The notes beneath the pieces are model-generated. The model saw nothing but the letters and a program-made list of their open reading frames with translations, did no database searches and was not told the DNA's origin. Both the position numbers and the translations under genes were made by a program. DNA of 64,000 nucleotides from Polaribacter dokdonensis (GTDB taxonomy: Bacteria; Bacteroidota; Bacteroidia; Flavobacteriales; Flavobacteriaceae): positions 206,001-270,000 of the forward strand of contig NZ_CP101505.1 of NCBI RefSeq assembly GCF_024362345.1, written 5' to 3'. Of this stretch, positions 33,681 to 64,000 are shown one piece after another. Within the stretch, counting starts at the first letter, position 1; each line of letters begins with the position of its first letter.

Positions 33681-33801
33681 GTGATGTTATTTTCTACAAG
33701 TTATAAAAATTAAAAAATATGGATTTAGGCAAATTATAAATGATAAAATAATTAATCCAATTCCGATTTTTGATTTCATAGTTTTTTCAGTCCGTAAATA
33801 G

Positions 33802-33934
33802 ATACAACGTTTTTGTGTATCATTTCGTTGCGTGTTTAAGCACTAAAGTTAGCAAATAAAACACAGATAGAAAGTCCGAAAGGATTTTCGTAAGTATACA
33901 TGTACCAAACAATCCATTTTATACGGTGTTGTAA
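33802..33934 (-). repeat. attC-like site 1 (distal end of array)
   Basis: 133 bases from ATACAAC to GTTGTAA. The central stem is near GAAAGTCC/GGATTTTC with mismatches. It is the last site before ordinary chromosome. Its right core is complementary to TTTACAAC at 34508-34515 across the first cassette. Confidence 0.8.
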
Positions 33935-33964
33935 ACAGTTTTTTTGTTTTCATTTTTAGCCAAT

Positions 33965-34348
33965 CTATTCCATTTTTTGGAAATAATGATTTGTATCGGC
34001 ATTCATTATGATTTTTGGTTGTTCAAATAATCTATTTACAAAATAAGTATAGTGTCCAGCTTTTCCGTTTCTATTTTCATAATGTAGTTCAATTTCAGTT
34101 TCAAATATTCCGTAATTGACTTTGTAAGTTCCAACTCCAAAAAAATTACTTGATAATGTTCTATCAAGTTTCAGAGTTAAAGTGTCTGGTTTATGAGGTG
34201 ATTCAATGCAACAGATTTTCTTTTGATAATTTTTATTAATATAGATACCTGCAATATCATTCTTCATCAAAGGTATGTTTCCATTGCACTGTAAAATAAA
34301 AATTAGTACGATTAAAACTCCGCTAATTTTAATTGCTATTCTTTTCAT
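33965..34348 (-). CDS. Cassette 1: small lipoprotein
   Basis: 127 residues with lipoprotein signal ISGVLIVLIFILQC, Cys at about 22. The mature part has alternating short strands (TLKLDRTLSSNFFGVGTYKV, YGIFETEIELHY), suggesting a small beta-sandwich or lipocalin-like domain, but no family is recognised. It is the most distal cassette of the array, with its stop 31 bases from the core of site 1. Confidence 0.65.
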   Translation of the reverse strand: MKRIAIKISGVLIVLIFILQCNGNIPLMKNDIAGIYINKNYQKKICCIESPHKPDTLTLKLDRTLSSNFFGVGTYKVNYGIFETEIELHYENRNGKAGHYTYFVNRLFEQPKIIMNADTNHYFQKME

Positions 34349-34484
34349 TTTTTCGGTTTTTCTTAACCTCTTTTTTAATCACACTTTTTCGAGCCCATTC
34401 TGTTAATTCAGAATTTGGGTTTTGAGTTTGTTCGTCAAGTTCGGTTTCAGTTAAATCGTTAAAATTCTTCCTTGTAATATGAAT
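34329..34484 (-). CDS. Possible small second gene or remnant in cassette 1
   Basis: An open frame with no ATG lies upstream of the lipoprotein gene and overlaps it by 20 bases. It encodes about 51 residues containing FNDLTETELDEQTQNPNSEL and TEWARKS, protein-like in composition. The frame is closed by TAA at 34488-34490, so only a rare start such as ATT at 34484 could be used. It may be a truncated gene. Confidence 0.3.
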   Translation of the reverse strand: MHITRKNFNDLTETELDEQTQNPNSELTEWARKSVIKKEVKKNRKNEKNSN

Positions 34485-34508
34485 GCTTTATTACATTTCT
34501 TAAATTGT

Positions 34509-34640
34509 TTACAACGTATTTGTTTATTCTTAGTTGCGTGGTTGCCCAAGTAAGTTAACAAACATTTACGAATCCGATAGAATTCCGCAGGAATTTTCGC
34601 AAGTAGGCGAACCAGCAATTAATTATAAACGGTGTTGCCA
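34509..34640 (-). repeat. attC-like site 2
   Basis: 132 bases from TTACAAC to GTTGCCA. The apex stem is GAATTCC/GGAATTTTC around GCA. It contains the stop codon of the MutS-like gene. Confidence 0.85.
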
Positions 34641-36292
34641 GTAGTGTTTTTTGCTACATATGTTTTATCTAATTCTTTTGCTAATTCGATTGCTTCCTTC
34701 ACAACTTCTTTTGGGTAATTATTAATTTCAAGTATTCTAATTGCATTTCTATTTCTTAGTTTTCCTTCTTTCAGTTTGTAATCAAAACCTACTGTTTTCT
34801 CGTTTACTGTTTCGCTGAAGTGATACAGCTCATATTCGTTAGAAAGCATATCTGTCAATTCTATGTCGTGAGTTGAAACCAATATTTTATTATTATTCTT
34901 TGTTAAAGCAGATAGAATAGATTTCCCAGCAGAAATACGCTCTATTGTATTTGTACCTTTAAATATTTCATCTAAAAGAAATAAGTTTTTATTTCCTTTT
35001 GCACTCTCATTAAGCATTTCTTTAATGGTTAATACTTCTTCAAAATAATAACTTTTGTCATTCATTAAATCATCACTTATTCTGATAGCCGAAAACACTT
35101 TTAACAAAGGAAAAGTCATTGATTTTGCAAAACAAGTATTAATTGTAAATCCAGTTATAACATTTAGTCCAATTGCACGAATAAAAGACGTTTTTCCAGA
35201 CATATTTGAACCTGTAAGAAGTATGGATTTTTCAGATATTTTTATGCTGTTAGTTGTGCAATTAAAAATTAAAGGATGACTGATCTCTTCAACAATGATT
35301 TTATCTCCATCATTAATAATTGGTAAACAGAATGTTTTAACTCCGTTTCTTAAAGACGCTATTGAAATTAGCATATCAATATGCCCAACAAATTTAAAGA
35401 CATTTTCTATGTCGCCTCTTTTGTTATTTAACCTTTTTAAAACTCCAAATAATAATAAGGGCTCAAGCAAAAACATTGTTTTAAAGATCTCAAATACAAA
35501 CCAAGCTATGATTTCAAATTCTCCTTGAAGTTTGGCTTCAAGTGAAAAAAATGACATTCTATTTTTAACTTCATTTATTAATTTGATGGACTTTGGTAAG
35601 TCAGGATTTATCTTTTTAAACAATGAGTTGGTAAATAAATGAGAAGCCACATTATTAAGCCTTAAAAGTTGTGGAATTGAATTTACATACTGAATTAAAT
35701 TATTTTTATTCCAATAATGTAATACAAAATTCACACAGAAGACGCCTAATAAAACTATAAAAAATTTAGGGTCGAAAAAGGCGAAAATCAATGAAAATAA
35801 ACTTGTTAACGACAATAATTTTATAACAAAAAACCATTTTGGTGGCTTAATATGCTCGTCTTGAAATAATGTAGTTATGTAGTAGGCATCTTTATGTTTT
35901 AGTTTTTCAAACTTTTTTTGAACCGAAACTCTTAATTCTGGATTTTTCGATAATTCAGTTATTATTTCTTCGTTCAGTTTGGTTTGCTTTTCATTTACTT
36001 TTATTGTCCGAAGATTATTGTAAAAGTATTGTTGACCAACTTTTGAATTAGTTCGGTCAAGAAACATAAATAAGTCATCAAAATCCAAGTCGTTACAGGT
36101 TTTGTCTGATAATACTTGATGTGCTTTTGAATTATCTTTTTTTCTGAAGTATTTTTCAATGGCTTCAAAGTCAAAGGAATCATCTTTCAGTTTTCCAAAT
36201 GATTCTTTTAACCTTTGATTTAACTCTTTTTTTCTATTGAATTTTATTTGAGAAAAAGTGTATTTAATTCGAAAAATTATGTCTTTAATCAT
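34619..36292 (-). CDS. Cassette 2: membrane-anchored MutS-like ATPase
   Basis: 557 residues. A cytosolic N-terminal part is followed by two transmembrane helices at about 153-171 and 175-193, then a MutS-type ATPase domain: Walker A GSNMSGKT at 361-368, Walker B LLDEIFKGTN at about 439-448 and STHDIEL. The mismatch-recognition and connector domains of MutS are absent. Such membrane MutS relatives are known in Bacteroidota, but their role is not established. The last six residues (GNTVYN) and the stop come from the attC-like site. It is the sole gene of its cassette. Confidence 0.82.
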   Translation of the reverse strand: MIKDIIFRIKYTFSQIKFNRKKELNQRLKESFGKLKDDSFDFEAIEKYFRKKDNSKAHQVLSDKTCNDLDFDDLFMFLDRTNSKVGQQYFYNNLRTIKVNEKQTKLNEEIITELSKNPELRVSVQKKFEKLKHKDAYYITTLFQDEHIKPPKWFFVIKLLSLTSLFSLIFAFFDPKFFIVLLGVFCVNFVLHYWNKNNLIQYVNSIPQLLRLNNVASHLFTNSLFKKINPDLPKSIKLINEVKNRMSFFSLEAKLQGEFEIIAWFVFEIFKTMFLLEPLLLFGVLKRLNNKRGDIENVFKFVGHIDMLISIASLRNGVKTFCLPIINDGDKIIVEEISHPLIFNCTTNSIKISEKSILLTGSNMSGKTSFIRAIGLNVITGFTINTCFAKSMTFPLLKVFSAIRISDDLMNDKSYYFEEVLTIKEMLNESAKGNKNLFLLDEIFKGTNTIERISAGKSILSALTKNNNKILVSTHDIELTDMLSNEYELYHFSETVNEKTVGFDYKLKEGKLRNRNAIRILEINNYPKEVVKEAIELAKELDKTYVAKNTTGNTVYN

Positions 36293-36386
36293 TAAACAAT
36301 TAGTGTAGGATTTCTATTTAATGTTACAAAAAATGTTCAGTTTATTGTTCATTTGATTAATTTTAACAAGGTGTTTTTTACATTAC

Positions 36387-36521
36387 TGGCAATGTGTTCG
36401 TGTGATGATGTGTTGAGTTGACTAGGAACTAAGTTAGTAAAAGGAAACGAACCTTAGGGAAATCCGTATAATTTTCCGAGTACATACAGACCCAAGCAAT
36501 TAATTATACACGGGGTTGTGT
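36387..36521 (-). repeat. attC-like site 3
   Basis: 135 bases from TGGCAAT to GTTGTGT. Left core ends AAT rather than AAC, and the apex stem is imperfect. The right end pairs with ACACAAC at 39035 across the three-gene cassette. Confidence 0.8.
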
Positions 36522-36525
36522 GTAG

Positions 36526-37044
36526 TTAGTTTTTGATTTCATTTTCTATATCAACCAATTTCAACTCCTTATGGTAGGTATCAATTCTTGAATAGGCGGT
36601 TCCATCTATTAATAAGATAACAATTAGCATAGCAATCGTTGTGATACTAATTGCACGCCAAGTTGGTGTATTAATAAAAATAATTGACAAGGCTGCTACA
36701 ATGATTATAATCGGAATAGTCTTAAAAACTATTGTATTATATTCTTTAAGAGTTGCTTCGGTACGAATGATTTCTGATTCTATGAATGTGGAAATATCTT
36801 TATTGTAAGCAGTTTCAAATTGTGTAATCCTTGACTTATTGGTGAAAAATAATCCAAGTCCTATGGTTATAAGCAGAACACCTGATACCACAGTCGGAAT
36901 TATGTATGCTCTTGCTACATCTGTTTTTCCAAGTTGCCAAAATCCTATACTTGCTGAAATAAATACAATTCCGAAAAGAATGAAAAATGGAGTTGAGAAT
37001 AATTCGGATTTTGCCCAGTCTGTTGCCGTTTTTAATATATCCAT
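36526..37044 (-). CDS. Cassette 3, third gene: membrane protein
   Basis: 172 residues with four predicted transmembrane segments: about 16-34, 42-66, 106-124 and 128-146. A charged loop (TQFETAYNKDISTF) separates the two pairs. No family is recognised. The start lies four bases after the AraC-type gene, so it is the last gene of an SDR-AraC-membrane protein operon carried in one cassette. Confidence 0.65.
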   Translation of the reverse strand: MDILKTATDWAKSELFSTPFFILFGIVFISASIGFWQLGKTDVARAYIIPTVVSGVLLITIGLGLFFTNKSRITQFETAYNKDISTFIESEIIRTEATLKEYNTIVFKTIPIIIIVAALSIIFINTPTWRAISITTIAMLIVILLIDGTAYSRIDTYHKELKLVDIENEIKN

Positions 37045-37048
37045 AATT

Positions 37049-37960
37049 TTAATTTAATTTATATTTTTCTCTGTATTCCGTTGGACTTATACCTTCTTTC
37101 TTTTTAAATAATCTTGAAAAATATTGTGGGTATTCGAACCCCAACTCATAAGCTACTTCTGAAATACTTTTATTCGGTTTCAATAAAATATTTTTTGCTT
37201 CATCAATTAAACGCAAGTGTAAATGTTCGGTAGTCGTTTTTCCTGTTTCTTTTTTAAGTGTATCACTTAAATAGCGTTGAGAAACTGACATTTTATTAGC
37301 TATTTGTTTTATGTTTGGAATACCTTTTTCTTGTAGCTGTCCTAATTCAAAATATTCAGACAATAGTAGATTAAATCGCTCCAACAAGTTATTTGATAAT
37401 TCTTTTCTATTCAAAAACTGTCTTTCATAAAATCGATTGGAATACTTAAAAAGCGTACTTAATTGAGAAATGATAATTTCTTTGCTAAATTCATCTTGAT
37501 TGTTCTGGTATTCTATTTCAATATTTGCAACTATAGATTCTATTTGCTTTTCTTCTTTTGGCGAAAGATGTAATGCTTCATTTACTGAATAGGAAAAGAA
37601 ACCGTATTTTTTTATTTGTTGTGCTAATTCTGTTCCTTTTAAAAAATCTTCGTGGAAGTTTATTGAAAAGCCTTTTCGCTCAAAAACCACGCTACTGTCC
37701 CATTGTAGAATTTGCCTTGGAGCAATGAAAATTAACGCTCCATTGGTAAAATCATATTTTGTTCGTCCGTAGTTTAAGTCGCCTTTTACAAATTTCTTTA
37801 AGCTAATGGAATAGCAATCGTTTGTAATTGGTGGTGAACTTTCTTTTGGACAAGGTAGAAATCCATCCCCTTTTGAGTTGAAAACACTCAACATAGGGTG
37901 TTCTGGTCTCGGCAGTTCCAAATAATCTAAATAGGATGATACTGTTTTAAAATGTTGCAT
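37049..37960 (-). CDS. Cassette 3, second gene: AraC-family transcription regulator
   Basis: 303 residues. The N-terminal half is a cupin-like effector domain. The C-terminal 100 residues hold two helix-turn-helix units: IKQIANKMSVSQRYLSDTLK and ISEVAYELGFEYPQYFSRLF, then KKEGISPTEYR, the AraC signature. It should bind DNA and probably regulates its own operon, since the SDR gene lies nine bases upstream of it. Regulators are uncommon in typical integron cassettes. Confidence 0.9.
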   Translation of the reverse strand: MQHFKTVSSYLDYLELPRPEHPMLSVFNSKGDGFLPCPKESSPPITNDCYSISLKKFVKGDLNYGRTKYDFTNGALIFIAPRQILQWDSSVVFERKGFSINFHEDFLKGTELAQQIKKYGFFSYSVNEALHLSPKEEKQIESIVANIEIEYQNNQDEFSKEIIISQLSTLFKYSNRFYERQFLNRKELSNNLLERFNLLLSEYFELGQLQEKGIPNIKQIANKMSVSQRYLSDTLKKETGKTTTEHLHLRLIDEAKNILLKPNKSISEVAYELGFEYPQYFSRLFKKKEGISPTEYREKYKLN

Positions 37961-37969
37961 AATACAAAT

Positions 37970-38920
37970 TTAGATATTCCATTTTATACCTGTTTCTTTT
38001 TCCGAAAGTTCCCATAATTTTTTTGATACGATTTTATCTTTTGCGTGCGATTCTAATTTATGTGGTCCAACTGGACCCGTCCAATTATTTCTTCCTGTAG
38101 GACCATAAAAACTACTTTGGTCTAAATTAGGTTCTGTGGCACACATCAATTGCGGATAAGCACCTTTTTCAGCTGATTGTGTTAATGGCGACAATTTCAT
38201 TAGATTAAAGATGAATTTCATCATAAAGCTACCACTTGAATTTATTAAGTTGGTTCTTGAAGAACCAGGATGACAAGCGTAAGCTTTAACATCTGTTTTC
38301 CCAGCTTCTTTTAATCTATCTTGTAATTCGTACATAGACATTATCTGCGCCAGTTTACTTTGACTATATGCATTATTAGGCGTGTAATCTTTATTCCAAT
38401 TCAAATCGTCAAATTTGATGGTTTTAATTCCCATATCATATCCCAAACTTCCTACCGTTACAATTCGTCCTTTGGATTTCTCAACAAGTGGGAACAATAA
38501 TGCTTGAAGCGTAAAATTCCCATAGTAATTCGTTCCCATTTGACTCTCCCACCCATCTACTGTTAATGTTTGTTTAGGTACTTGTGCAATTGCTGCATTG
38601 CAAATAAGTGCATCGATTTGATGAACTGTTTTTATAACTTTTTCAGTAGCTTTTTTTACAGAGGTTTGTTCGGATAAGTCCATTTGAATGTTAATTACAT
38701 CAATATCGTTACCCAATTCTTGTTTCAATGAAGCAATGGTGACTTCTGCTTTTTTAGGATTCCTATTAAGCATTACAACTTTAGCTCCTTTTGATAGCAA
38801 TATTTTCGCTGCTTCAAATCCTGTTCCGCTTGTAGTTCCTGTAATGACGTATGTTTTACCATTTAATTTTTCAATTCTATCTGGTGTCCAACCTTTTTTA
38901 CCAAATCGATTTGTATTCAT
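37970..38920 (-). CDS. Cassette 3, first gene: short-chain dehydrogenase/reductase
   Basis: 316 residues from ATG 38920; a longer frame begins at a TTG inside the attC core and is rejected. The NAD(P) motif TGTTSGTG is at 27-34 and the catalytic YSQSK at 185-189, with GSLG at 157-160 and the CNAA motif near 107. It resembles the protochlorophyllide-reductase-like and retinol-dehydrogenase-like SDRs. The substrate is unknown. It is the first gene of the cassette operon with an AraC regulator, a common pair for inducible oxidoreductases. Confidence 0.88.
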   Translation of the reverse strand: MNTNRFGKKGWTPDRIEKLNGKTYVITGTTSGTGFEAAKILLSKGAKVVMLNRNPKKAEVTIASLKQELGNDIDVINIQMDLSEQTSVKKATEKVIKTVHQIDALICNAAIAQVPKQTLTVDGWESQMGTNYYGNFTLQALLFPLVEKSKGRIVTVGSLGYDMGIKTIKFDDLNWNKDYTPNNAYSQSKLAQIMSMYELQDRLKEAGKTDVKAYACHPGSSRTNLINSSGSFMMKFIFNLMKLSPLTQSAEKGAYPQLMCATEPNLDQSSFYGPTGRNNWTGPVGPHKLESHAKDKIVSKKLWELSEKETGIKWNI

Positions 38921-39034
38921 TTTGTCTATTTTTTTTAAGATTAAAATTATAAGACAAAGGTCGGGTAGTAGTAGTCTTAATTCCTTATACGGATTTTCAA
39001 ATGTTGTATACTTTTTGGTATGAGTGGTAATTAC

Positions 39035-39168
39035 ACACAACGGTCTCGTATAACCGTCAGTTACGGGTTAATATACACAGACTTTTCGGTTTAGCACAGG
39101 CGTTAGTAATTCCGAGTGGATTCGGACGTAGTCGAATCCGCCGTAATTGCGGTTATACATTGTTGTGC
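39035..39168 (-). repeat. attC-like site 4 (divergent class)
   Basis: 134 bases from ACACAAC to GTTGTGC. The core ends match the array rule, but the interior is unlike the others: the apex stem is GGATTCG (39118-39124) with CGAATCC (39133-39139), and outer arms are ATAACCG/CGGTTAT. It is a separate attC subfamily and more GC-rich. Confidence 0.8.
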
Positions 39169-39179
39169 TTTCGTACTTT

Positions 39180-39698
39180 TTATTCCGATTTATGTACTTC
39201 AAGTTCGATTTCAATCATAAATTCAGGTAATGCTAATCCTTTTACTTCAAGCCAAGAACCAGTCGGAAATCCATTTTTATAAATTTCAGCACGATATGCT
39301 GATTTTTCAAGCATTTGAGCCATATCAGTTGTAAAAATATCTTCTTTTACAACATCGTCAAATGTGCAACCAAAGTGTTTTAATATTTTTTCTAAATCAG
39401 CATAACAGTTTTTCATCTGCTGTTCTATATCTCCAACAGCTGTTGGATTTCCTTCATTGTCCATACTTACTGCACCAGATATTTTGATGTCGTTTCCAAT
39501 TTTCACAGCGTGTGAATATCCGTATGCTTTTTCTACTTCTGGACGCAGGAGAAAATATTCAGGTTTTTCGGATTCAATAATTATTTCTTTTTCCACCTCT
39601 TTAGTTTCTTCCTTTTGTTTTTGTTCACAACTTTGGAATCCAAAAGCGAATGCAAAAAGTATTGCGAGTAAAGTCAATCGGTTAGTTAGTTTTTTCAT
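39180..39698 (-). CDS. Cassette 4: RidA-family lipoprotein
   Basis: 172 residues. A lipoprotein signal (FAFAFGFQSC) at the N-terminus is followed by a glutamate/lysine-rich linker and a RidA/YjgF domain: SHAVKIGNDIKISGAVSMD, EQQMKNCYADLEKILKHFG and VKEDIFTTDMAQ. RidA enzymes deaminate imines in the cytosol; here the domain is exported and membrane-linked, which is unusual. The typical active-site Arg is not obvious. It is the sole gene of its cassette. Confidence 0.85.
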   Translation of the reverse strand: MKKLTNRLTLLAILFAFAFGFQSCEQKQKEETKEVEKEIIIESEKPEYFLLRPEVEKAYGYSHAVKIGNDIKISGAVSMDNEGNPTAVGDIEQQMKNCYADLEKILKHFGCTFDDVVKEDIFTTDMAQMLEKSAYRAEIYKNGFPTGSWLEVKGLALPEFMIEIELEVHKSE

Positions 39699-39778
39699 TA
39701 TTTTTAATTATTTATAGCCTACTTTAGTCGGTTTTCGGCTTTCCCGTTTTTAATATCCGTTTCGTTTTTCAGTATGAA

Positions 39779-39976
39779 GCACAATGTGTTTGTATAAGAT
39801 TAGTGTGGGATATAAAAATCGACAAGATTTATTGAAGCTACGCTAAGCTTATAATTAATTGTGTTTTTATCTTGGTGACCTAAAAATAATTAAATAGTTA
39901 TAAGCGACATAGCAAATAGGCGAGAATCTTTAAGTTAAGCTAGAAACACCCGCATTAATTTTATACGATGTTGCCA
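39779..39976 (-). repeat. attC-like site 5 (long class)
   Basis: 198 bases from GCACAAT to GTTGCCA. The outer arms GTATAAGATTAGTGTGGG and CCGCATTAATTTTATAC pair imperfectly. The interior is about 60 bases longer than in the common class and resembles sites 23 and 24. Confidence 0.8.
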
Positions 39977-39998
39977 TTTCGTTGGCTTTAGAAATTTG

Positions 39999-40535
39999 TT
40001 ATTCTAAATTTAAAATTGATTCATTAGATATTAATTGGCGAATAGAAGCTATAGAAACCGTTAATTTCATAGCTTGGTCAATGGCTTCAGGATTTTGTTG
40101 AAGTCTCTCTAAAGAAGTAATATGACTATCAAAGCACATATATCCAGCATTTAAAAGGGAAAACGAGATACAGGCATAATGATAAGCAACAACATCATAA
40201 ATTTTTAACGCCATAAATTGACGTAAGTTTAAAACGTCCAAAGTACCTCCTGCTTTTACTGAATGAACGTTTCTTCCCATAAAATATGGATTTGTTATAC
40301 TCATTCGTGAAGAAGCAATTAAAACTATCTTTTCCTCCTCGGTTGTAAGCTTTCCAATTTTATTTTCTATAATTTTTTTAATTTCTACATGCTTTAGTTG
40401 TGCACAAGAAGCCCAGGCTATTATTCTTATTTGTGATTCGGATAAATAAGTTTGATCTGAAATTGTTTCTTCAAAGAGATCAATTTGATCCTTTATTTCA
40501 GGATATTTTTTTAACAGGTTTTCGAAAATATTCAT
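39999..40535 (-). CDS. Cassette 5: AhpD-like (carboxymuconolactone decarboxylase superfamily) protein
   Basis: 178 residues, mostly helical. The central sequence SSRMSITNPYFMGRNVHS resembles the AhpD/CMD-like family, and an Ile-Ile-Ala-Trp-Ala-Ser-Cys helix comes before it. The canonical CxxC redox motif of AhpD is missing, since only single cysteines are present, so peroxidase activity cannot be assumed. No signal peptide is present. It is a sole cassette gene. Confidence 0.5.
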   Translation of the reverse strand: MNIFENLLKKYPEIKDQIDLFEETISDQTYLSESQIRIIAWASCAQLKHVEIKKIIENKIGKLTTEEEKIVLIASSRMSITNPYFMGRNVHSVKAGGTLDVLNLRQFMALKIYDVVAYHYACISFSLLNAGYMCFDSHITSLERLQQNPEAIDQAMKLTVSIASIRQLISNESILNLE

Positions 40536-40558
40536 TTTTTAATAGTTTTCACTATGAA

Positions 40559-40692
40559 TAGCAACGTGTTTGTGTTATGATTAGTTGCGTTGGCTGAGAA
40601 TAAAGATAATAAATAGAAAGCGAATGGCAGAAAATCCGTAGGATTTTCCCAAGTAAGCGATTAAAAGCAATTAATTATACACGTTGTTGTAA
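40559..40692 (-). repeat. attC-like site 6
   Basis: 134 bases from TAGCAAC to GTTGTAA. The apex stem is GAAAATCC/GGATTTTC around GTA. Common class. Confidence 0.85.
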
Positions 40693-40715
40693 GCAGGCTT
40701 TTATATTTCTACTTT

Positions 40716-41147
40716 TCAGTTCTTTGAAATATTTATTTTATTATTCAATTCCAATAATTTTGAAACGAATTTTTCTTCATTTTTCGGACTAATAAAAACA
40801 TCATCATATTTTTTATATTTTACTAATATTCCATTTATTGCAGTTGCAGGTCTTATTCCATACCAAACATTTTTATTTGTTTCTACCTCATTTATACTTT
40901 CAATTTTTATTTTCCCTCTAATTAGTCCAGATTTATATATTAATTCCGTTTTGTTTAGTTCGTATTGTGTTCCAAAATATGTCCACAAAATATATAAAGT
41001 ACATAATAATAAGAGTATTTCAGCCATTTCAAATTCATAATTTTCAATTCCTCCAGAGAAAATTCGATAAATAGAAAAACTTGAAATTCCGAAAAAAAAT
41101 AAAGTCATTAATTTAAATACTATATTTTTCCTACTTTTAAATTTCAT
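40716..41147 (-). CDS. Cassette 6: bacterial PH-domain membrane protein
   Basis: 143 residues. Two transmembrane segments (about 10-28 and 40-58) are followed by a bacterial PH-like domain: YELNKTELIYKSGLIRGKIK, then NEVETNKNVWYGIRPA. This matches the DUF1200/PH domain family, also seen in SunI-type immunity proteins, but a bacteriocin-immunity role is only a possibility. It is a sole cassette gene. Confidence 0.78.
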   Translation of the reverse strand: MKFKSRKNIVFKLMTLFFFGISSFSIYRIFSGGIENYEFEMAEILLLLCTLYILWTYFGTQYELNKTELIYKSGLIRGKIKIESINEVETNKNVWYGIRPATAINGILVKYKKYDDVFISPKNEEKFVSKLLELNNKINISKN

Positions 41148-42029: not shown

Positions 42030-42035
42030 AATTGT

Positions 42036-56702: not shown

Positions 56703-57260
56703 TTAATTTTCAATTTCTTCGTAAATATCATTTATAGATTTGTCATATTTTTCATTTATGTATTTATTCACTAATTTATTATAGCATTCCATTTCTGTTC
56801 TTAAAAGACAGCCCATTGAAAAATATTCAATATCATATTTAGATTTCATAATTTCTCTCATTCCAGAAATAGAGGCTATTCCAAAATGAAAGTATTTCAA
56901 TTCTTCTTTTGTTAAGTCAGCATTAAATCTTTTTTCCATCTTTTCGCAAGTTTCTAATTCGGAATATTCTGAAAGGCGATTTTGGCGTAATATATTTTCA
57001 AAATTTTCGGTCGAAAGATGTATGTTCAGAATTAGAGAAATTCCTAAAGATCCAATTATTATTTTAATTAAAATTTTTCGGTGTTTTGTAATAATAAAAT
57101 ATAGTCCAAAACCTATTAAACCAATTATAAATAGGATTTGAGAAATTTCCAATTCCAATTTAAAATCATACCAATACCACATTTCAATAGAATTAAAAAT
57201 TATTAGAATAGTTCCAATAATTCCTAATGTTAAAAGTAAATATTTCGTTTTTGAGTTCAT
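56703..57260 (-). CDS. Cassette 18: membrane protein
   Basis: 185 residues. Three transmembrane helices lie at about 7-24, 38-58 and 64-82, followed by a soluble helical region with FGIASISGMREIMKSKYDIE and several cysteines. No family is recognised. It is a sole cassette gene; its start is 12 bases from the next attC core. Confidence 0.58.
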   Translation of the reverse strand: MNSKTKYLLLTLGIIGTILIIFNSIEMWYWYDFKLELEISQILFIIGLIGFGLYFIITKHRKILIKIIIGSLGISLILNIHLSTENFENILRQNRLSEYSELETCEKMEKRFNADLTKEELKYFHFGIASISGMREIMKSKYDIEYFSMGCLLRTEMECYNKLVNKYINEKYDKSINDIYEEIEN

Positions 57261-57271
57261 TCGCTAATGTT

Positions 57272-57403
57272 GGGTAACGTGTTTGTATAAGATTAGTTGC
57301 GTGGTTTGAGCACCTAATTTAGCAAATAAAAACCGAATAGAAAATCCGCGAGGATTTTCGTAAGTAGGCTAGAACTAGCAATAAATTATATACGGTGTTG
57401 CTA
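57272..57403 (-). repeat. attC-like site 19
   Basis: 132 bases from GGGTAAC to GTTGCTA. The apex stem GAAAATCC/GGATTTTC is around GCGA, and the interior is almost identical to site 7. Confidence 0.88.
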
Positions 57404-57412
57404 CACGTTTTT

Positions 57413-58201
57413 TTATTCCCAAAATTCATATTTGAAATATCTTGGTACATATCCACGAACGCTTTTTAAAAGTCCGTTTTCGTAATATTTATAATTCAGT
57501 TCATATTCATTAGTTCGGTCATTCATAAATACGGATTTAATATCTGATTTTATAAGTTGACCTTTTTCGTTAAAACTGTTCTTAATGGTTTTATTATCCT
57601 CAAATCTTTGTAAATCGGTTTGGTCAGAATATGCCAAAGTATTTGTTATTCCGTTTTCCGTCGTTTTTACTTTTTTTAGTTTAGATTTTAAATAATAACC
57701 GAAAAATCTACTAACATAAAAGTCTTTTTCATATTCTTTTGTCTTTTCGTAAACCAGTATTGAATCCTTTTTCTGCGTTGTGGTTGATTTAAATGGTTCG
57801 TAATAGTAATTCGTTTCATAAACAAAACTGCCTAAATTTTTTCTTGATGAAATCAGTTTATTATTTGTTCCATATTTAAATGTTGTTGAATCTTTCCCTA
57901 TTGAATCTATTATTTTAATTAATCGATTTTGAGAGTCGTATTCATAACGATTTATTTTGTCAGTTAATTTGTGTTTTCGGCTTTTACGATTATAAGACGC
58001 ACTAAATTCAGTCGAGCGTATCCTTTTTCCATTTCGGTCAAATTCTACAATTTCGGATATGTCTTTAGGTGAATTTAAATAGACAAATATTTTCTTTACT
58101 TGTCGGTTTACGTAAATACTATCAGGTTGCCATCTATTTTCAATTTGTCCAAAACTCCAAAATGGAATAGAAATAAATATTATAAAAAATAGTTTGTTCA
58201 T
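57413..58201 (-). CDS. Cassette 19: secreted YD-repeat-like protein
   Basis: 262 residues from ATG 58201, with a signal peptide ending IPFWSFGQ. Repeats of the YD type are present: RYEYDSQNRLIKIID, FKYGTNNKLISSRKN and YKYYENGLLKSVRGY. These occur in RHS-like surface proteins but are short here, without a toxin tip. A surface role is likely; the function is unknown. It is a sole cassette gene. Confidence 0.68.
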   Translation of the reverse strand: MNKLFFIIFISIPFWSFGQIENRWQPDSIYVNRQVKKIFVYLNSPKDISEIVEFDRNGKRIRSTEFSASYNRKSRKHKLTDKINRYEYDSQNRLIKIIDSIGKDSTTFKYGTNNKLISSRKNLGSFVYETNYYYEPFKSTTTQKKDSILVYEKTKEYEKDFYVSRFFGYYLKSKLKKVKTTENGITNTLAYSDQTDLQRFEDNKTIKNSFNEKGQLIKSDIKSVFMNDRTNEYELNYKYYENGLLKSVRGYVPRYFKYEFWE

Positions 58202-58230
58202 TTTATGGAATTCGGTTTTTCTCAAATGTG

Positions 58231-58363
58231 TGGCAACGTTGTTGTATATGATTTGTTGCGTGTTTCAAGCACTAAAGTTAGCAAATAAAACACAGATAGA
58301 AAGTCCGCGAGGACTTTCGTAAGTAGGCAAGAAGCCAGCAATAAATTATATACGGTGTTGTAA
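58231..58363 (-). repeat. attC-like site 20
   Basis: 133 bases from TGGCAAC to GTTGTAA. The apex stem is GAAAGTCC/GGACTTTC around GCGA, a compensated variant shared with site 16. Confidence 0.88.
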
Positions 58364-58370
58364 ACTGGCT

Positions 58371-59357
58371 TTATCCTAAAACCTTAATATTTTCTTCAAA
58401 CCTTTTAATCGCTGTTTCTTTGTTTAGATGACTTGGGAAACTATTCAATATTTTTTCATATTTTACTATACCAATGGCTTTTGCTATGTAAGCTTCGTGG
58501 ACAAAATTTAAATAGTAAATTAATTCTCCTAAACTCGAATGAAAACTTTTAAAATCGATGTCAGCATTAATAAAACTTTCAATATCTCTATAATTTGCTT
58601 TAATTCTCAACCTATAAAGTAGATTGAAAATTGAAGTTATTGGGATTGTTTTGTAAATAATATCCCAATGATTCTTACTAAATGATTTTCTAAATTCCCC
58701 TTTTCCATTTCTAAATCTTTTATCGTTTTGTTTTGCTAAACGATTTCGTTTATCTTCTGCGTTTCTTTTTCGTGTAGTTTTTAAAAAAGTAGCTAACTGT
58801 ATTTCCGCGTCTTCTAAACATTCTATTTTTCTTAAAACACTGCTGTCTTTTGGGAATTCCTTAAAAGTCGGCAATCCTTGATATTCAAATTCATTTTTCA
58901 AGCCTGATGAATAAAAAGAAATTGCAGATGGATAATGATTGTCTTTTATTGAATTTCCAAAAAGTTTAATTGATTTTTCGTGCTGTTCGTTTGCTAAACC
59001 TTGTGTTTCGTGGAAAGCTGTCATAGATAGATAAACCGAATAATATGCTTGAGGAAAGTTCCAATGAAGAGAGAATTTATAGTATTCATCATTATCAATT
59101 TTTTCCCCAATTCGATAAGCGTATTCTGTACTCCAAGAATTCCAAAGTAGTTTTCTAACTTCGTCTATATTAAAACTACTATTCTTAATTTTTATGTCAT
59201 TATAATATGGAATCTTTTTTAATTCAAATTTCTCACTATTACAATTAAGACAATAAATTATAGAAAAGAAATGATTAAAAAAGACTTTTGATGGAATTGA
59301 TTTTGCTTGTTCAGCTCGTGTTTTCAAAAACATTTCCATAATTCCTGTTAATGCCAT
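58371..59357 (-). CDS. Cassette 20: helical protein of unknown function
   Basis: 328 residues, mostly helical. YCLNCNSEKF near residue 35 is a possible half zinc site. The stretch PQAYYSVYLSMTAFHETQG resembles the core helix of HEPN-like or AbiV-like proteins, but no Rx4-6H pair is clear. No signal peptide is present. The context of defence-type cassettes makes this a candidate worth testing, not a call. It is a sole cassette gene. Confidence 0.5.
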   Translation of the reverse strand: MALTGIMEMFLKTRAEQAKSIPSKVFFNHFFSIIYCLNCNSEKFELKKIPYYNDIKIKNSSFNIDEVRKLLWNSWSTEYAYRIGEKIDNDEYYKFSLHWNFPQAYYSVYLSMTAFHETQGLANEQHEKSIKLFGNSIKDNHYPSAISFYSSGLKNEFEYQGLPTFKEFPKDSSVLRKIECLEDAEIQLATFLKTTRKRNAEDKRNRLAKQNDKRFRNGKGEFRKSFSKNHWDIIYKTIPITSIFNLLYRLRIKANYRDIESFINADIDFKSFHSSLGELIYYLNFVHEAYIAKAIGIVKYEKILNSFPSHLNKETAIKRFEENIKVLG

Positions 59358-59375
59358 AAGTTTATTTTAGCTTGT

Positions 59376-59508
59376 TTACAACGTGTTTGTACAAGGTTAG
59401 TTGCGTGGTTTAGCTATAAATTTACTAAATAATTACTGACAAAGAAAATCTGCAAGGATTTTCGTAAGTAAGCAAAAAGCAAGCAATTAATTTTGTACGG
59501 TGTTGGCT
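59376..59508 (-). repeat. attC-like site 21
   Basis: 133 bases from TTACAAC to GTTGGCT. The apex stem is GAAAATCT/GGATTTTC around GCAA, with one wobble pair. Its last base lies inside the stop codon of the next gene. Confidence 0.87.
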
Positions 59509-60169
59509 ACAGTTTTTTCTCCATTGATTTATAAAATTCATTTATTTCCAATGTATATTCATCTAATAATGATTTCTCTCTTTCAAATAAATCAGTTAAT
59601 TTATATAAAGGGTCTTTGAGTTTACATAAATAAAAAGTTTCCATTTTTTTAAAAAACAATTCTTTCATTTCAGAATTCAATGGTGATATATGAATTCGTT
59701 TTTTTATTAATTCAAAAGACCTAATTACTAAAATTATACTGTCAGCTATATAATATTGACTGAATTTCTTATTTCCTGAATAAAATTTGAAAACTGAATT
59801 ACAATAATCTATTAGAGCTTCGTGTCCAAATTTTCGAATTCTCTCACCTTTATTTGTTGAGTATAAGTATATCTGATTATATTCATTATCAAGTTGATTG
59901 AAAAGCATAAAAATTATATCACTTTCATTTTTTATTTTTTGGTCATTAAAACTATCTATTTGTCTGTTCAGTGTTAAATACAAAAAAATTACACTTATAA
60001 TTCCTAAGAGAGGGGAAGTAATTCCTCCAATAGTGTCTCCTATACTTGAAGTATTTGTTAAGTCAAATACTTTCCAAATATTAGGTAGTGTCAGAATGTA
60101 GATCAATAGCAAAGAAATTATTATTAATCCAATAGTCAAAATGATTGTTTTAAATATTATTTTTTTCAT
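59507..60169 (-). CDS. Cassette 21, second gene: two-helix membrane protein resembling abortive-infection proteins
   Basis: 220 residues. Two N-terminal transmembrane helices (about 5-27 and 48-66) flank the loop SIGDTIGGITSPLLGIISVI, a pattern I recall from a family named putative phage abortive infection protein. A cytosolic helical region with LFNQLDNEYNQIYL follows. The assignment rests on that loop and topology. It is five bases downstream of the zinc-ribbon gene. Confidence 0.55.
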   Translation of the reverse strand: MKKIIFKTIILTIGLIIISLLLIYILTLPNIWKVFDLTNTSSIGDTIGGITSPLLGIISVIFLYLTLNRQIDSFNDQKIKNESDIIFMLFNQLDNEYNQIYLYSTNKGERIRKFGHEALIDYCNSVFKFYSGNKKFSQYYIADSIILVIRSFELIKKRIHISPLNSEMKELFFKKMETFYLCKLKDPLYKLTDLFEREKSLLDEYTLEINEFYKSMEKKL

Positions 60170-60174
60170 TCAAT

Positions 60175-60606
60175 TTATTTTCCAATTATATTTTTCCAAA
60201 TTTCTTTCATTATTCTTTTCGGAAAAGAAACTGGTTTTTCCTCATTTGGGTCTTCTAACCAAAAGTCACAAACGTCACAAACAACCTCATTTTTGTAAGT
60301 TGCTTTTCCACCAATTCCATCTGCAATTGCTATTTCATCTGCAAGTCCAATTCCACCATCTGTGTTTGTCCATTCCACTTTATTTTTCCGAATTTTGTCA
60401 GAGTAACAGCGTGGACATTTTTTCAGATTATCTTCAAGTTTTGATTCAGGATTTTCAGCAATTAATCTTTCAATTTTAGATTCATTCAAATTTCTTTCAA
60501 CTAAATATTCCTTAATTTTTGATTGAGTTACTTTCATATATGTTGACAATTTGAATTTTGCAAAAAAGGCTAATTCATAATCATCTAATTCATTTATTTT
60601 GCTCAT
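60175..60606 (-). CDS. Cassette 21, first gene: zinc-ribbon-like protein
   Basis: 143 residues. Two CxxC pairs (KCPRCYSD near 82 and VVCDVCDFW near 120) suggest a single zinc ribbon with a long insert. The N-terminal half is helical (ELAFFAKFKLSTYMK). No family is recognised. It is directly followed by the membrane protein gene, and the two form the cassette operon. Confidence 0.6.
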   Translation of the reverse strand: MSKINELDDYELAFFAKFKLSTYMKVTQSKIKEYLVERNLNESKIERLIAENPESKLEDNLKKCPRCYSDKIRKNKVEWTNTDGGIGLADEIAIADGIGGKATYKNEVVCDVCDFWLEDPNEEKPVSFPKRIMKEIWKNIIGK

Positions 60607-60620
60607 TTCTTGTTAATTGT

Positions 60621-60754
60621 AGCCAACGGTTTTGTGTAAGGATAGTTGCGTGTGCAAGCAACCAACTTACTAAAAATGGAACGAACCAGAGGAAAATCCG
60701 TAGGATTTTCCGAGTAGGCAAGAACCAAGCAATTATTTTTACACGGTGTTGGCA
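60621..60754 (-). repeat. attC-like site 22
   Basis: 134 bases from AGCCAAC to GTTGGCA. The apex stem is GAAAATCC/GGATTTTC around GTA. Common class. Confidence 0.87.
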
Positions 60755-60758
60755 ATAG

Positions 60759-61265
60759 TTATTTTTTATTCCGTTTGTTCAATCTTTTCAATCGGTTTAT
60801 TTCCGATTTCTTTGTTCGGTTCAGATTTTTAGTCCGAGTGCAAAGGTCAGTCGAAAAATACGGTTCAACTTTATTATTCTCTTCGAAAGTGTTTACTTGT
60901 AAATCCGTTTCGTATGAGTAAATCAAATGTTCCGAGTTCAGGTCAAAATAATTTCCACAATCCGCTCCTCCACCAGAAGTTACAATAGTTATGAAATCCG
61001 ATTTTTCTTTTCCTTTAATCAGTTCCGTAACTTTAAAAACAAACTCAATTCTATTAATTTCTCGAATGTAATATTTTCCTTTTTCAGTTGAGCTTGGGAT
61101 TGAGTCATACACCTTTCCTTCGTTAATTTCCACAACTTTTCCAGTAAAAATCAAGTCCGAATGTTCAAATCCATATTTAACGCTTGATTTTTCACAAGAA
61201 CAAGAATAAACCTTGTTTGCTGAAAAAATCAGAATAAACATTGTTATGATTATCGGGTTCTTCAT
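60759..61265 (-). CDS. Cassette 22: secreted TIMP/NTR-like protein
   Basis: 168 residues from ATG 61265; a TTG at 61277 is inside the attC core. The signal peptide is followed by CSCEKSSVKYGFEHSDLIFT, then FVFKVTELIKGKEK, a pattern seen in bacterial TIMP-like or NTR-fold secreted proteins. Cysteines are paired across the mature part, as expected for disulphides. It is probably periplasmic or secreted. A sole cassette gene. Confidence 0.7.
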   Translation of the reverse strand: MKNPIIITMFILIFSANKVYSCSCEKSSVKYGFEHSDLIFTGKVVEINEGKVYDSIPSSTEKGKYYIREINRIEFVFKVTELIKGKEKSDFITIVTSGGGADCGNYFDLNSEHLIYSYETDLQVNTFEENNKVEPYFSTDLCTRTKNLNRTKKSEINRLKRLNKRNKK

Positions 61266-61271
61266 AATTAT

Positions 61272-61471
61272 TGCCAACGTTTTTGTATAAGATTAGTGTG
61301 GGAGGTAGACAAACTTTATTTTGTCAGCCGAGCCACTAAGCTTATACTTATTTTGTGTTTTTTTCTTTGTCGACCTAAAAATAGATAAATAAGTTTAAGC
61401 GGACTTTATAAATAAACCAAAACTTTGGACTAAACCATAAAAACCCACATTAATTTTATACGGTGTTACAT
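61272..61471 (-). repeat. attC-like site 23 (long class)
   Basis: 200 bases from TGCCAAC to GTTACAT. The arms TATAAGATTAGTGTGGG and CCCACATTAATTTTATAC pair well. The interior resembles site 24, including the shared stretch AAATAAGTTTAAGCGGAC. Confidence 0.85.
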
Positions 61472-62230
61472 GCTGTTTGATTTGCCATCAAAACTTCTGA
61501 AATCTAAAGGGAATGGATAATATGTCGGATATTTGTTTAATATTATTGGAGCATGTTTTAAAGACTTATATTTATTATAAAATTTAAAACCTGTTATATC
61601 AGTCACTTTATCCAGTGGTTTGTCATTATCTATGCTTAATACAAATCCGAACGGTGGAAAAGTAAAATCGCATATTGCTCCATAAAGATTAGTGAAGAAA
61701 ATTGTACCTTTTTTAACCTGACCCTCATTATTTAGATACATATAAATTTTATACCTATCACTTAATTTTTCCAATTCGGGGTCTTTTACAAAGTCAATCA
61801 ATTCAGGATACTGATCAGTAAATACACTTTGATTATTACAAATAAATATTGCTATTATTTGTTTTAAAAATTTTAAATGATTTATATCAGATATATCGAA
61901 TTGATAAGCTTTTGCATTTTTATCCTCATGGGTAATGATACTCATACAAATATTTGCAAATTTCTTGTATTCTCTTACGTATTTTGATCCGAGGAAACTA
62001 TTGCAATCAAAGCATAAGCAGTAATCTCCTATTCCACCTTGTTCAACTTTGGTTTTTATCTTCTCCTCTTTACTCAAATACTTTTCTACTTTTGTATAAT
62101 ATTCAGTCGAATCAACTATTTGGTATCTACTTTTGTTAAAGGCTGACCTTGGAGGAATATGCTCAAAATTTAATTCTTTTTCTTCTTTGCAAATTCTACA
62201 AATTCCAATCTTAGTTTTTTTGTTTTTCAT
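61466..62230 (-). CDS. Cassette 23: HNH-like zinc-binding protein
   Basis: 254 residues from ATG 62230; an upstream extension lies inside the attC-like site. The N-terminus has CRICKEEKELNFEHIPPRSA followed by a CLCFDCNSFLGSKYVREY motif. Paired CxxC and a central histidine-proline motif resemble HNH endonucleases of the zinc-finger type. The C-terminal half is of unknown fold. A nuclease function is possible. Confidence 0.6.
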   Translation of the reverse strand: MKNKKTKIGICRICKEEKELNFEHIPPRSAFNKSRYQIVDSTEYYTKVEKYLSKEEKIKTKVEQGGIGDYCLCFDCNSFLGSKYVREYKKFANICMSIITHEDKNAKAYQFDISDINHLKFLKQIIAIFICNNQSVFTDQYPELIDFVKDPELEKLSDRYKIYMYLNNEGQVKKGTIFFTNLYGAICDFTFPPFGFVLSIDNDKPLDKVTDITGFKFYNKYKSLKHAPIILNKYPTYYPFPLDFRSFDGKSNSM

Positions 62231-62247
62231 TTTTTTTGGAAAATTGC

Positions 62248-62443
62248 ATGTAACGGTTTGGCTAAGCTTAGTGTGGGATTTGATACTCACAAATTATCGA
62301 AGACATCACTTAGCTTAGACTTATTTTATAGTTTTTTCTTTATTGACTTAAAATTAATCAAATAAGTTTAAGCGGACAAAATAAAAAAGCCAAAAACTTC
62401 GAGAAAGGAATAAAACCCACATTAAGTTTAGCCGTTGTTGTAG
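62248..62443 (-). repeat. attC-like site 24 (long class)
   Basis: 196 bases from ATGTAAC to GTTGTAG. The outer arms GGCTAAGCTTAGTGTGGG and CCCACATTAAGTTTAGCC are complementary, with base changes on both sides relative to site 23. Confidence 0.85.
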
Positions 62444-63472
62444 CTAGTTTTTTTTATATTTACCTTCAATTCGACAAAAGGCACCTAACTGCCATTTTTC
62501 ATATGAATCATTTGATGAAATCTGAATAGTTTCATTGTTTTTAATAATTTTTAAATGATGCTTTGATTCAAATATTTCTCCTTTGTCAGAGTATACAAAA
62601 CCTTCATAAAAATTTTCTTTAGATTTTGATAATATTCCTTCATAATTAGGCATAGCACATTTTTCATTGGAAATCATTAAGTCAATTTTTATACTCTCAT
62701 TATCAATGTTAACTATTTCTAAATGATTCGTATGGTTGTAGTAATTTTCAATTTTTGTTGATGGTTCAAAATTCAAATATTCTCTAATGTCATTATATTT
62801 ATATTTTAAGTCAATAGCTGGAGTCATATTCTTAATAGCATTTGGAAGAGAACAAGTTTCAATGAATTCTATGTGATTTTCATTTAAAGAAAAATCTCCT
62901 AATTCTTCATCATTCTTACATTTATTCAAGTATTCATATACCCAATCATATTCATTTTTGTCAATATCTTTTTGTTTAAAAAGTTCTTTAAGTTGTTTTA
63001 TTTCATTTTCAAATTGTTCATTTTTCTTATTAAGAATTTGTTGCTTAAAGTTATTCAACTTTAAAAGCGAATCAATTTTAATAGGTTTTCCAGTTTTTGT
63101 ATTGTAATTGAAATAGGATTTCCAATAAGTACAATATGCAGCGCATCCTTCAGTTTCAATATTAAATGATATTATATTATTTCTATTGTAAGTTATGTTA
63201 AAATTTATATAACCTATTTGGTCACCAATCCATTGTTTTAAAGTTTTATTTATAGATGAATTAGGAGCTTCATTATAAGTATATTTATTTTTTAAATCGA
63301 AATTTATTAAAGAATCGATTTTCTTATTTCCTGTTTTGAATATTGGGTATATTAATTTGTCTAATGGTGAAGTATTTTGCTCACTTTTATAAAGATGTAA
63401 AGTGTCTATTTTGACTGTTTGAGAAAATGAATTCAAAGAAATTATTAATATAAAGTATAATAGTTTTTTCAT
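62444..63472 (-). CDS. Cassette 24: secreted protein resembling DUF3298/RsiV
   Basis: 342 residues with a signal peptide ending ISLNSFSQ. The N-terminal half has ISFNIETEGCAAYCTYWKSY and FNYNTKTGKPIKIDSLL, a pattern found in the DUF3298/RsiV-like fold. The remainder is charged and lacks known motifs. A periplasmic role is likely. It is the sole gene of the last complete cassette in the window. Confidence 0.6.
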   Translation of the reverse strand: MKKLLYFILIISLNSFSQTVKIDTLHLYKSEQNTSPLDKLIYPIFKTGNKKIDSLINFDLKNKYTYNEAPNSSINKTLKQWIGDQIGYINFNITYNRNNIISFNIETEGCAAYCTYWKSYFNYNTKTGKPIKIDSLLKLNNFKQQILNKKNEQFENEIKQLKELFKQKDIDKNEYDWVYEYLNKCKNDEELGDFSLNENHIEFIETCSLPNAIKNMTPAIDLKYKYNDIREYLNFEPSTKIENYYNHTNHLEIVNIDNESIKIDLMISNEKCAMPNYEGILSKSKENFYEGFVYSDKGEIFESKHHLKIIKNNETIQISSNDSYEKWQLGAFCRIEGKYKKN

Positions 63473-63485
63473 TTTTCGTAATTAG

Positions 63486-63619
63486 CTACAACGTGTTTGT
63501 ACAAGGTTAGTTGCGTGGTTTAAGCAATAAATTTACTAAATAATTACTGACAAAGAAAATCCGCGAGGATTTTCGTAAGTAAGCAAAAAGCAAGCAATTA
63601 ATTTTGTACGGTGTTGGGC
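63486..63619 (-). repeat. attC-like site 25
   Basis: 134 bases from CTACAAC to GTTGGGC, with a classic right core. The apex stem is GAAAATCC/GGATTTTC around GCGA. The interior is nearly identical to site 21. Confidence 0.88.
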
Positions 63620-63623
63620 ACAG

Positions 63624-63998
63624 TTATTTATATTCAATTTTCCTAGTTTTAATATATTCTAGTTTTCCATTTTCAAAAGACTCTCTTTTAATCCAATTTT
63701 TGAATTTGTCAAATTCATATTTATATTCTGTTTTTGAAATTAGCGAATCTTTATCGTTAAATTCCTTTACTGCTTTTAAGATTCCACATTCATATTCATA
63801 TTTAGAATTTATATTTCTTTCGGGTTTTATTAAATCAGATAATCTAGATTCAGTTATTAATTCCTTTTTGTCATATTTACTAATTTCAATTGTATTCGAA
63901 ATTGTATCATTGGATTCAATATCTATATATTGGTTTAGTAATGAAGTTTGTTTTAGGGTCTTGTCAGAATTATATTCATATTTTCCAATTTGTTTCAT
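63624..63998 (-). CDS. Cassette 25 (partial): YD-repeat-like protein
   Basis: The frame is open to the window edge, so at least 124 residues are visible; the methionine at 63998 is probably internal. The sequence has repeats of the YD/RHS-like type (GKYEYNSDKTLKQTSLL, KYEYECGILKAVKEF, YKYEFDKFKNWIKRES). The stop lies four bases from the attC core. It resembles the cassette 19 product in style but not in detail. The promoter and start lie outside the window. Confidence 0.6.
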   Translation of the reverse strand: MKQIGKYEYNSDKTLKQTSLLNQYIDIESNDTISNTIEISKYDKKELITESRLSDLIKPERNINSKYEYECGILKAVKEFNDKDSLISKTEYKYEFDKFKNWIKRESFENGKLEYIKTRKIEYK

Positions 63999-64000
63999 AT

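Follow-up and report, generated by a model that had tools for sequence, protein, structure and literature searches.

Tandem gene cassettes beside a tyrosine recombinase gene on the chromosome of Polaribacter dokdonensis, probably an integron of a new type in flavobacteria

A stretch of 64,000 bases of the Polaribacter dokdonensis chromosome (assembly GCF_024362345.1, contig NZ_CP101505.1, bases 206001-270000 of the 3,087,453-base chromosome), hereafter the window, holds the larger part of a chromosomal gene-cassette array, made of tandem cassettes in one orientation with structured sites between them and provided with its own recombinase gene. Comparison of related sequences makes it very probable that the array, the recombinase and an attI-like core lying between them work as an integron of a new type, widespread in related flavobacteria. 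We call it so because its anatomy works like that of an integron, while its integrase is not an IntI by definition.

Altogether, the array comprises 29 attC-like sites and 29 cassettes. Inside the window lie 24 complete cassettes and 25 sites spanning 33806-63615 (Table 1), 21 of them of about 125 bases and four (sites 5, 13, 23 and 24) of a long type of 183-192 bases. Four further sites follow past the window end, all inside the next 3.8 kb, and then come the last cassette, the attI-like core and the tyrosine recombinase gene. Read on the plus strand, each site begins with AAC (AAT in two sites) and ends with GTT; between them stand a spacer, usually of six bases, two stem arms separated by a variable middle, and a second spacer, usually of three bases. 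A pattern scan for this layout recovered 21 of the 25 window sites, or 25 of the 29 when the window was joined to L009 (the stretch continuing past it, whose positions plus 63000 give window coordinates), together with four chance matches elsewhere; the sites at 33806, 36391, 39783 and 40563 were placed by reading the sequence. An open reading frame (ORF) on the minus strand is present in all 29 cassettes, and from 33.9 to 63.5 kb every plus-strand ORF overlaps a minus-strand one. A search of the window against Rfam found nothing at the gathering scores. An earlier model-made interpretation of the letters (the sequence-only reading) had announced 25 palindromic sites, 24 complete cassettes and genes all on one strand, and all of these were confirmed. 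Its interval of 33801..64000 is right within the window and too short as the full extent, since the array continues to about 68,265 in window coordinates before the integrase gene is reached.

The two ends of each cassette match one another. Specifically, each of the first seven bases after GTT matches the opposite end of its own cassette in 29, 29, 27, 28, 29, 29 and 24, respectively, of the 29 cassettes; position 8 matches in none of them, and positions 9 and 10 in 27 each, although these last are nearly constant T's by eye and therefore carry little weight as cassette-specific matches. Pooled over eight arm positions, 195 of 232 comparisons match; 10,000 permutations gave 90.7 on average and never more than 124. 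The seven post-GTT bases thus vary between cassettes yet match within one, and both end pairs quoted by the sequence-only reading, in cassettes 44367-45231 and 61465-62254, were found as it described them. The same profile appears in 268 cassettes from 34 loci, with 255, 242, 239, 240, 236, 238, 189, 5, 233 and 218 matches at positions 1-10. At least six of the seven arm bases are complementary in 227 of these cassettes (shuffled mean 11.6, maximum 23 in 1,000), and in 202 of the 227 arm position 8 is a G opposite a T on the site strand. Such matching ends are those expected if every cassette is cut out through GTT in circular form. The sites do not follow the canonical attC boxes RYYYAAC and GTTRRRY, the latter fitting only two of the 29 R' boxes. 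Within the array, the five cassettes nearest the integrase have their first seven arm bases fully matched, and worn arms occur toward the far end, in the cassettes starting at 39162 and 39970.

The sites also show signs of a conserved fold. In a MAFFT alignment of the 25 short sites (21 from the window, four from L009), nine of 19 tested stem pairs change on both sides, giving 41 covarying cells compared to 11.7 after shuffling, and none of 500 shuffles reached as high. A larger set of 150 model-fitted sites (144 distinct, from 33 sources) gave 199 covarying cells against 51.8, in an alignment biased toward structure. Among its 144 rows, which are the best model matches, three positions of the stem are occupied by a G.T pair in 135, 135 and 143 rows, respectively, and these pairs become C.A on the opposite strand; no conserved bulged base was seen in the stem. 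When the excised form was modelled, the plus strand, which is the gene template or bottom strand, was predicted to be the more stable in all 29 sites, with a mean of -26.1 kcal/mol for the bottom and -21.5 kcal/mol for the top strand; 100 random stretches from the first 33 kb of the window average -9.7. Prediction and covariation together therefore point to single-strand folding of the attC kind with the bottom strand favoured, and the strand polarity seems to rest on the G.T pairs.

Directly after the integrase stop codon there is a core of the form ATATAA(C/A), two or three bases and GTT, followed by the arm of the first cassette. Of 41 loci tried, two had no readable integrase end; in 35 of the other 39 the core pattern lies within 170 nt of the integrase stop, compared to 109 of 7,800 stretches taken at random from these loci, a rate that is flattering because the pattern was drawn up from loci already inspected. 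A near variant is visible in two of the four misses (L067 and L070). From its recurrence beside the integrase gene we infer that this core acts as an attI.

The linkage between sites and integrase was then followed in other genomes. Among 42 integrase hits in the genus, 31 besides that of the genome of the window (G000) had room on the contig; nhmmer found sites in 28 of these 31 loci, and in all 28 they lie on the strand opposite to the integrase. Two further loci, L049 and L054, show weaker model matches of the same polarity. In other genera, ten of 80 loci carry sites downstream of the integrase and on the strand expected, in named records of Winogradskyella (two), Hanstruepera, Subsaximicrobium, an uncultured Flavobacteriaceae, a Flavobacteriales metagenome-assembled genome, Lutibacter, Aurantibacter, Mesonia and Croceitalea; many of the 80 break off shortly past the integrase or encode more distant recombinases. 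The integrase is found in 39 of 58 genus genomes (E 1e-60) and model sites in 55 (E 1e-4, with a ceiling of 60 site candidates scored in each genome); at the same E limits, 102 of 249 family genomes have the integrase, and 209, belonging to 197 of 235 genera, have sites (with a ceiling of 14 candidates). A sample of the phylum gave sites in 39 of 247 genomes, 16 of the 39 being of the same family, so that the site model is not promiscuous. Apparent in-frame stops in integrase hits were not borne out: in the nine readable of 13 fetched stretches the stop is the terminal one.

Single-site blastn returned five plasmid records, with sites on plasmids of Tenacibaculum finnmarkense, Flagellimonas and Persicobacter, and no match in phages. 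In plasmid CP116296.1 of T. finnmarkense, model sites are directly followed by an annotated tyrosine recombinase paired with an IS91-family transposase (L188:4985-7008 and 8248-10232). In the genome of the window, nine more model sites lie far from the main array, at G000:C1:1692041-1697700 (minus), 1002157-1026378 (plus), 2137855 and 2792698; these small clusters and single sites may be akin to a CALIN (cluster of attC sites lacking integron integrases). In another genome, model sites on one strand extend over about 138 kb (G037:C1, approximately 1084055-1221899), which would be a very large array.

The recombinase lies on the strand of the cassette genes (minus) and therefore reads toward the array. 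Of the domains known to Pfam, it has the catalytic one and a SAM-like one for core binding, whereas its first ~95 residues match none at a trusted level. Its best matches in the PDB are XerA, an archaeal Xer, and IntI4, with concordant results from Foldseek, and the alignment to IntI4 breaks where the latter carries about 40 extra residues. Of 120 relatives, 119 have a distance of 64 or 65 residues from the KGxKxR to the HxLRH motif (the remaining one was not measurable); the distance is 62-72 in the other measurable Xer-like proteins, compared to 105-106 in IntI1 and a Shewanella phage IntI. Judged by alignment and motif spacing, the recombinase is thus without the IntI-specific insert: the sequence-only reading had proposed looking in the adjoining contig for a tyrosine recombinase with that insert, and the recombinase is indeed there, 4.3 kb past the window, but the insert is not. 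Residues R224, K249, H314, R317, H340 and Y349, which we take to be the catalytic ones, are invariant in 24 proteins. The nearest named relatives come from Ochrovirga, Wenyingzhuangia, Flavicella and Polaribacter.

P0001, a protein 97% identical to the recombinase of the array, scores 208.5 bits with the integron integrase model TIGR02249, under its cut-off of 265 (the gene of the array is likewise not over it), and 227.7 bits with the NCBIfam XerA model NF040815, over its cut-off of 220; the latter model is labelled 'site-specific tyrosine recombinase/integron integrase'. In a tree of 51 proteins, 17 integrases of the array family form one group (100/100) and two IntIs, the only ones included, another (100/99); between the two groups stand proteins not seen with an array. 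By insert, TIGR02249 cut-off and tree placement, the integrase falls outside the accepted definition of IntI. No canonical IntI scored above the TIGR02249 cut-off in the 58 genus or the 249 family genomes, searches in which no control genome rang at the strict limit; for that reason a positive control was run on two known IntIs, which the same model scores at 508.6 and 394 bits.

Cassette content was compared between genomes at two levels. Among 285 cassettes delimited by nhmmer sites we found 12 homologous pairs between genomes (at least 75% identity over at least 80% of both), falling into six cassette families; a homologous neighbour was detected for none of the 12, which favours shuffling of the cassettes. 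In three pairs of sister genomes (G057/G020, G021/G013 and G000/G041), the 12 kb upstream of the integrase are covered by 90, 88 and 90% at 89.3, 87.6 and 87.8% identity, and the array-side stretch by 9, 14 and 5%, respectively. G057 and G020 have only the integrase and its edge in common on the array side (9% of 20 kb, and none of the next 20 kb), and G021 and G013 have a common integrase end. For G000 and G041, 5% of the 33 kb compared (L009 and the final 14 kb of the window) was matched, including 224 bases at 74% and 586 bases of flank. Nearly all cassette similarity is therefore lost between sister species with alike flanks, and cassette content appears to change between close relatives at the level of sister species, not of strains. 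The integrases of G000 (L009:5302-6486) and G041 (loci L042/L195) are 51% identical as proteins, compared to 87.8% for the flank, so that the integrase itself may have been swapped.

The system resembles the sedentary chromosomal integrons of the Vibrio type and the class 1-3 integrons in its single orientation, in attC-like ends that match within a cassette, in the favoured bottom strand, in a GTT at the presumed exchange point and in an attI-like core beside the integrase. It differs from them in an integrase that has an extra N-terminal domain in addition to lacking the insert, in R-box pairing over seven cassette-specific post-GTT bases, and in a helical stem of 16 pairs in which G.T pairs are conserved and no conserved bulge was visible, whereas canonical attC sites use extrahelical bases. 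Like the recombinase described here, the integrase of Treponema integrons reads toward attI, in cassette direction; in the available text of PMC3607928, however, the Treponema integrases are treated as IntI, while ours falls below the IntI model. With the XerA/NF040815 recombinases the integrase shares its best family model, its best PDB relative (5hxy) and a similar motif spacing, and it differs from them in heading a cassette array and in its added N-terminal domain. Sites with the AAC-ACC-GTATAT core and a GTT end also occur in the CALIN of Polaribacter phage P12002L, where site model R1 matches at 39123, 14503 and 38036 (E 2e-9 to 2e-6) and a short site at 38880 has E 0.06; two of the phage sites are just 54-56 bases long, and no IntI match was obtained in the phage.

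As for previous literature, the portions of PMC2426708 and PMC9668308 at hand define integron integrases by the IntI-specific domain, and integrons have been recorded in the phylum (PMC8618304 and PMC2426708, in part). The accessible text of the IntegronFinder 2.0 paper (PMC9024848) names one complete Bacteroidetes integron, in Salinibacter, and earlier only In0 elements; that of PMC10013915 reports that IntegronFinder found none in a Tenacibaculum genome; and the available sections of PMC8352920 and PMC10963911 do not mention Bacteroid or Flavobact. No report of such an integron type was found in the integron literature, in a search that left subscription journals and preprints outside. If our interpretation is true, a large gene-capture system, with model sites in 209 of the 249 sampled family genomes, has been overlooked, of an integron type that standard searches would miss. 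It would also open to testing how a tyrosine recombinase uses folded single-strand sites without an insert thought essential.

The mechanism that we propose is as follows. The template (bottom) strand of a site would fold into a hairpin, and the recombinase would cut at GTT and insert cassettes at the attI-like core beside its own gene; new cassettes would therefore enter at the integrase end, to be later shuffled or lost. The correct strand would be told by the conserved G.T wobble pairs, which turn into C.A mismatches on the opposite strand. Something else would take the place of the IntI insert, most probably the N-terminal domain of about 75 residues, which may resemble the DNA-binding domains of SMARCAL1 (HARP) and XPB. 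From these comparisons we infer catalysis, the direction in which cassettes are inserted and what the N-terminal domain does, and recognition of the hairpin by a HARP/XPB-like domain is the weakest step, put forward as a hypothesis on the basis of weak structural similarity. The domain is predicted with confidence (predicted local distance difference test, pLDDT, 92), and any likeness in fold to the SMARCAL1 HARP and XPB N-terminal domains would leave its function here a guess. A profile search of the PDB with the domain gave one chance match and no clear sequence match to HARP or XPB. We also consider, as a tentative extension that we hold somewhat less likely to be right than wrong, a second integron class dominant in Flavobacteriaceae, in which XerA-like integrases would have gained hairpin recombination apart from IntI, a HARP/XPB-type N-terminal domain would take over from the IntI insert in reading the folded site, and G.T wobbles would replace extrahelical bases as the mark of the strand.

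Several observations weigh against an integron of a new type, or against parts of the scheme. Its basis is comparative throughout. The missing insert is one such point: Messier and Roy reportedly found it necessary for integrase activity. In the available text of PMC8138268, the insertion is 'not fully conserved' in a subgroup of integron-like recombinases, yet essential for integron function, and no array is linked to those recombinases in the same sections. Sites are commoner than integrases (209 compared to 102 of the 249 family genomes, at limits of 1e-4 and 1e-60), and five of seven site-bearing genus genomes were without an integrase at E 1e-30. L072 has no site by the model, L127 has a single weak site match, and in Salegentibacter flavus (L123) eight sites lie on the same strand as a recombinase of another clade (this array occupies 180-971 and 3036-9772). 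Site model R1 misses all four long sites of the array. As regards cassette turnover, the first cassette of G021, of about 0.5 kb, recurs inside the G013 array at 94-95%, one 949-base cassette is common to G000 and G041 at about 76-77%, and the pairs G010/G016 and G050/G052 have no common flank, hence are uninformative. For the N-terminal domain, the two best Foldseek matches are SMARCAL1 HARP, with weak figures (E 0.096, template modelling score 0.50, root-mean-square deviation 7.2 A); in VIA-align, XPB (6.3) is among the best and tied with CASTOR1 (6.6) and aIF1/eIF1 (~6), and SMARCAL1/HARP is not among the best 50 matches listed, which settles nothing. Pfam HARP matches one of 12 domain members, at E 0.012, and DUF5710 four of 12; moreover, the domain is also present on a relative, L096, without a model site.

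The excess of sites over integrases, with some genomes having the former and not the latter, would be natural if the array were a decayed canonical one (a CALIN), its sites moved by an ordinary IntI located elsewhere or lost, and the XerA-type recombinase next to it a bystander. The phage sites lend this some weight, since the available part of PMC9892861 reports IntI1 recombination, on the bottom strand only, of one attC of P12002L, which has sites of the same core, the one tested possibly among them; the result also helps our own interpretation, in that such sites are probably true attCs. Nonetheless, the absence of any IntI above the cut-off in the 58 genus or the 249 family genomes, with a model that recognizes known IntIs, argues against this account, and neither the fixed polarity in 28 of 28 genus loci nor the attI-like core in 35 of 39 would be expected of a bystander; we consider it improbable. 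The sequence-only reading had left the choice between a chromosomal integron and a CALIN: an integron-like system is well supported, and the CALIN is set aside since recombinase and attI-like core adjoin the array.

A real integron-like system could instead be a fossil in this strain, with a silent or defective integrase. The worn arms toward the far end would agree with this, as would G027, a genome with many sites and a shorter, diverged integrase; however, the 394-residue gene is intact with its corresponding residues invariant in relatives, the arms nearest the integrase are fully matched and sister species differ, and such decay is very unlikely. Least probable of all is a transposon-like or REP-like (repetitive extragenic palindromic) repeat, moved by a transposase and merely lying between genes: the sites are palindromic and numerous, with insertion sequence (IS) elements in or beside some, but a hopping repeat would not give matching ends within cassettes, a single orientation or an array anchored on one recombinase.

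Table 1. Coordinates of the cassette array, the adjoining integrase region and selected cassette genes (window coordinates unless a locus is named).
Feature	Position	Strand	Basis
attC-like site 1, array end farthest from integrase	33806..33930	+	placed by reading
attC-like site 2	34513..34636	+	pattern scan
attC-like site 3, AAT in place of AAC	36391..36517	+	placed by reading
attC-like site 4, stem sequence differs	39039..39164	+	pattern scan
attC-like site 5, long type (190 bases), arms worn	39783..39972	+	placed by reading
attC-like site 6	40563..40688	+	placed by reading
attC-like site 7	41174..41297	+	pattern scan
attC-like site 8	42040..42162	+	pattern scan
attC-like site 9	44243..44369	+	pattern scan
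attC-like site 10	45229..45352	+	pattern scan
attC-like site 11	46352..46473	+	pattern scan
attC-like site 12	48117..48241	+	pattern scan
attC-like site 13, long type (183 bases)	49649..49831	+	pattern scan
attC-like site 14	52422..52546	+	pattern scan
attC-like site 15	53201..53325	+	pattern scan
attC-like site 16	54221..54346	+	pattern scan
attC-like site 17	55279..55402	+	pattern scan
attC-like site 18	56564..56688	+	pattern scan
attC-like site 19	57276..57399	+	pattern scan
attC-like site 20	58235..58359	+	pattern scan
attC-like site 21	59380..59504	+	pattern scan
attC-like site 22	60625..60750	+	pattern scan
attC-like site 23, long type (192 bases)	61276..61467	+	pattern scan
attC-like site 24, long type (188 bases), stem GGCTAA/TTAGCC	62252..62439	+	pattern scan
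attC-like site 25	63490..63615	+	pattern scan
24 complete cassettes, genes on minus strand	33928..63492	-	ORFs and cassette ends
Cassette 25, first part (window end)	63613..64000	-	
attC-like sites past window	L009:1410-1533, 3129-3254, 3875-3998, 4612-4737	+	pattern scan
attI-like core, between array and integrase gene	near L009:5263		
Integrase (tyrosine recombinase), 394 residues	L009:5302-6486 = G000:C1:274302-275486	-	
MutS_V protein	34619-36292	-	Pfam
AraC-type regulator	37049-37960	-	Pfam
GmrSD-like protein	42171-44219	-	Pfam
CDI (contact-dependent inhibition)-immunity-like protein	53798-54196	-	Pfam

Of the 30 ORFs searched with Pfam in 33928..63492, 19 had no match at E 1e-4. The GmrSD-type and CDI-immunity-like products (Table 1), together with a protein at 50094-52397 that has weak matches to AAA-type defence models, are cargo resembling defence or immunity genes; PADLOC, run on ten cassette proteins, gave three weak or partial matches and none for the other seven. 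Some loci contain cassettes with a similar copy in the same locus: 16 in L063, seven in L064, six in L052, five in L051, four in L048 and two in L042. In addition, an element that looks IS3-like by eye lies within the central palindrome of a site at L068:14143-15575, and its copies in L043 and L069 also stand between two partial site matches.

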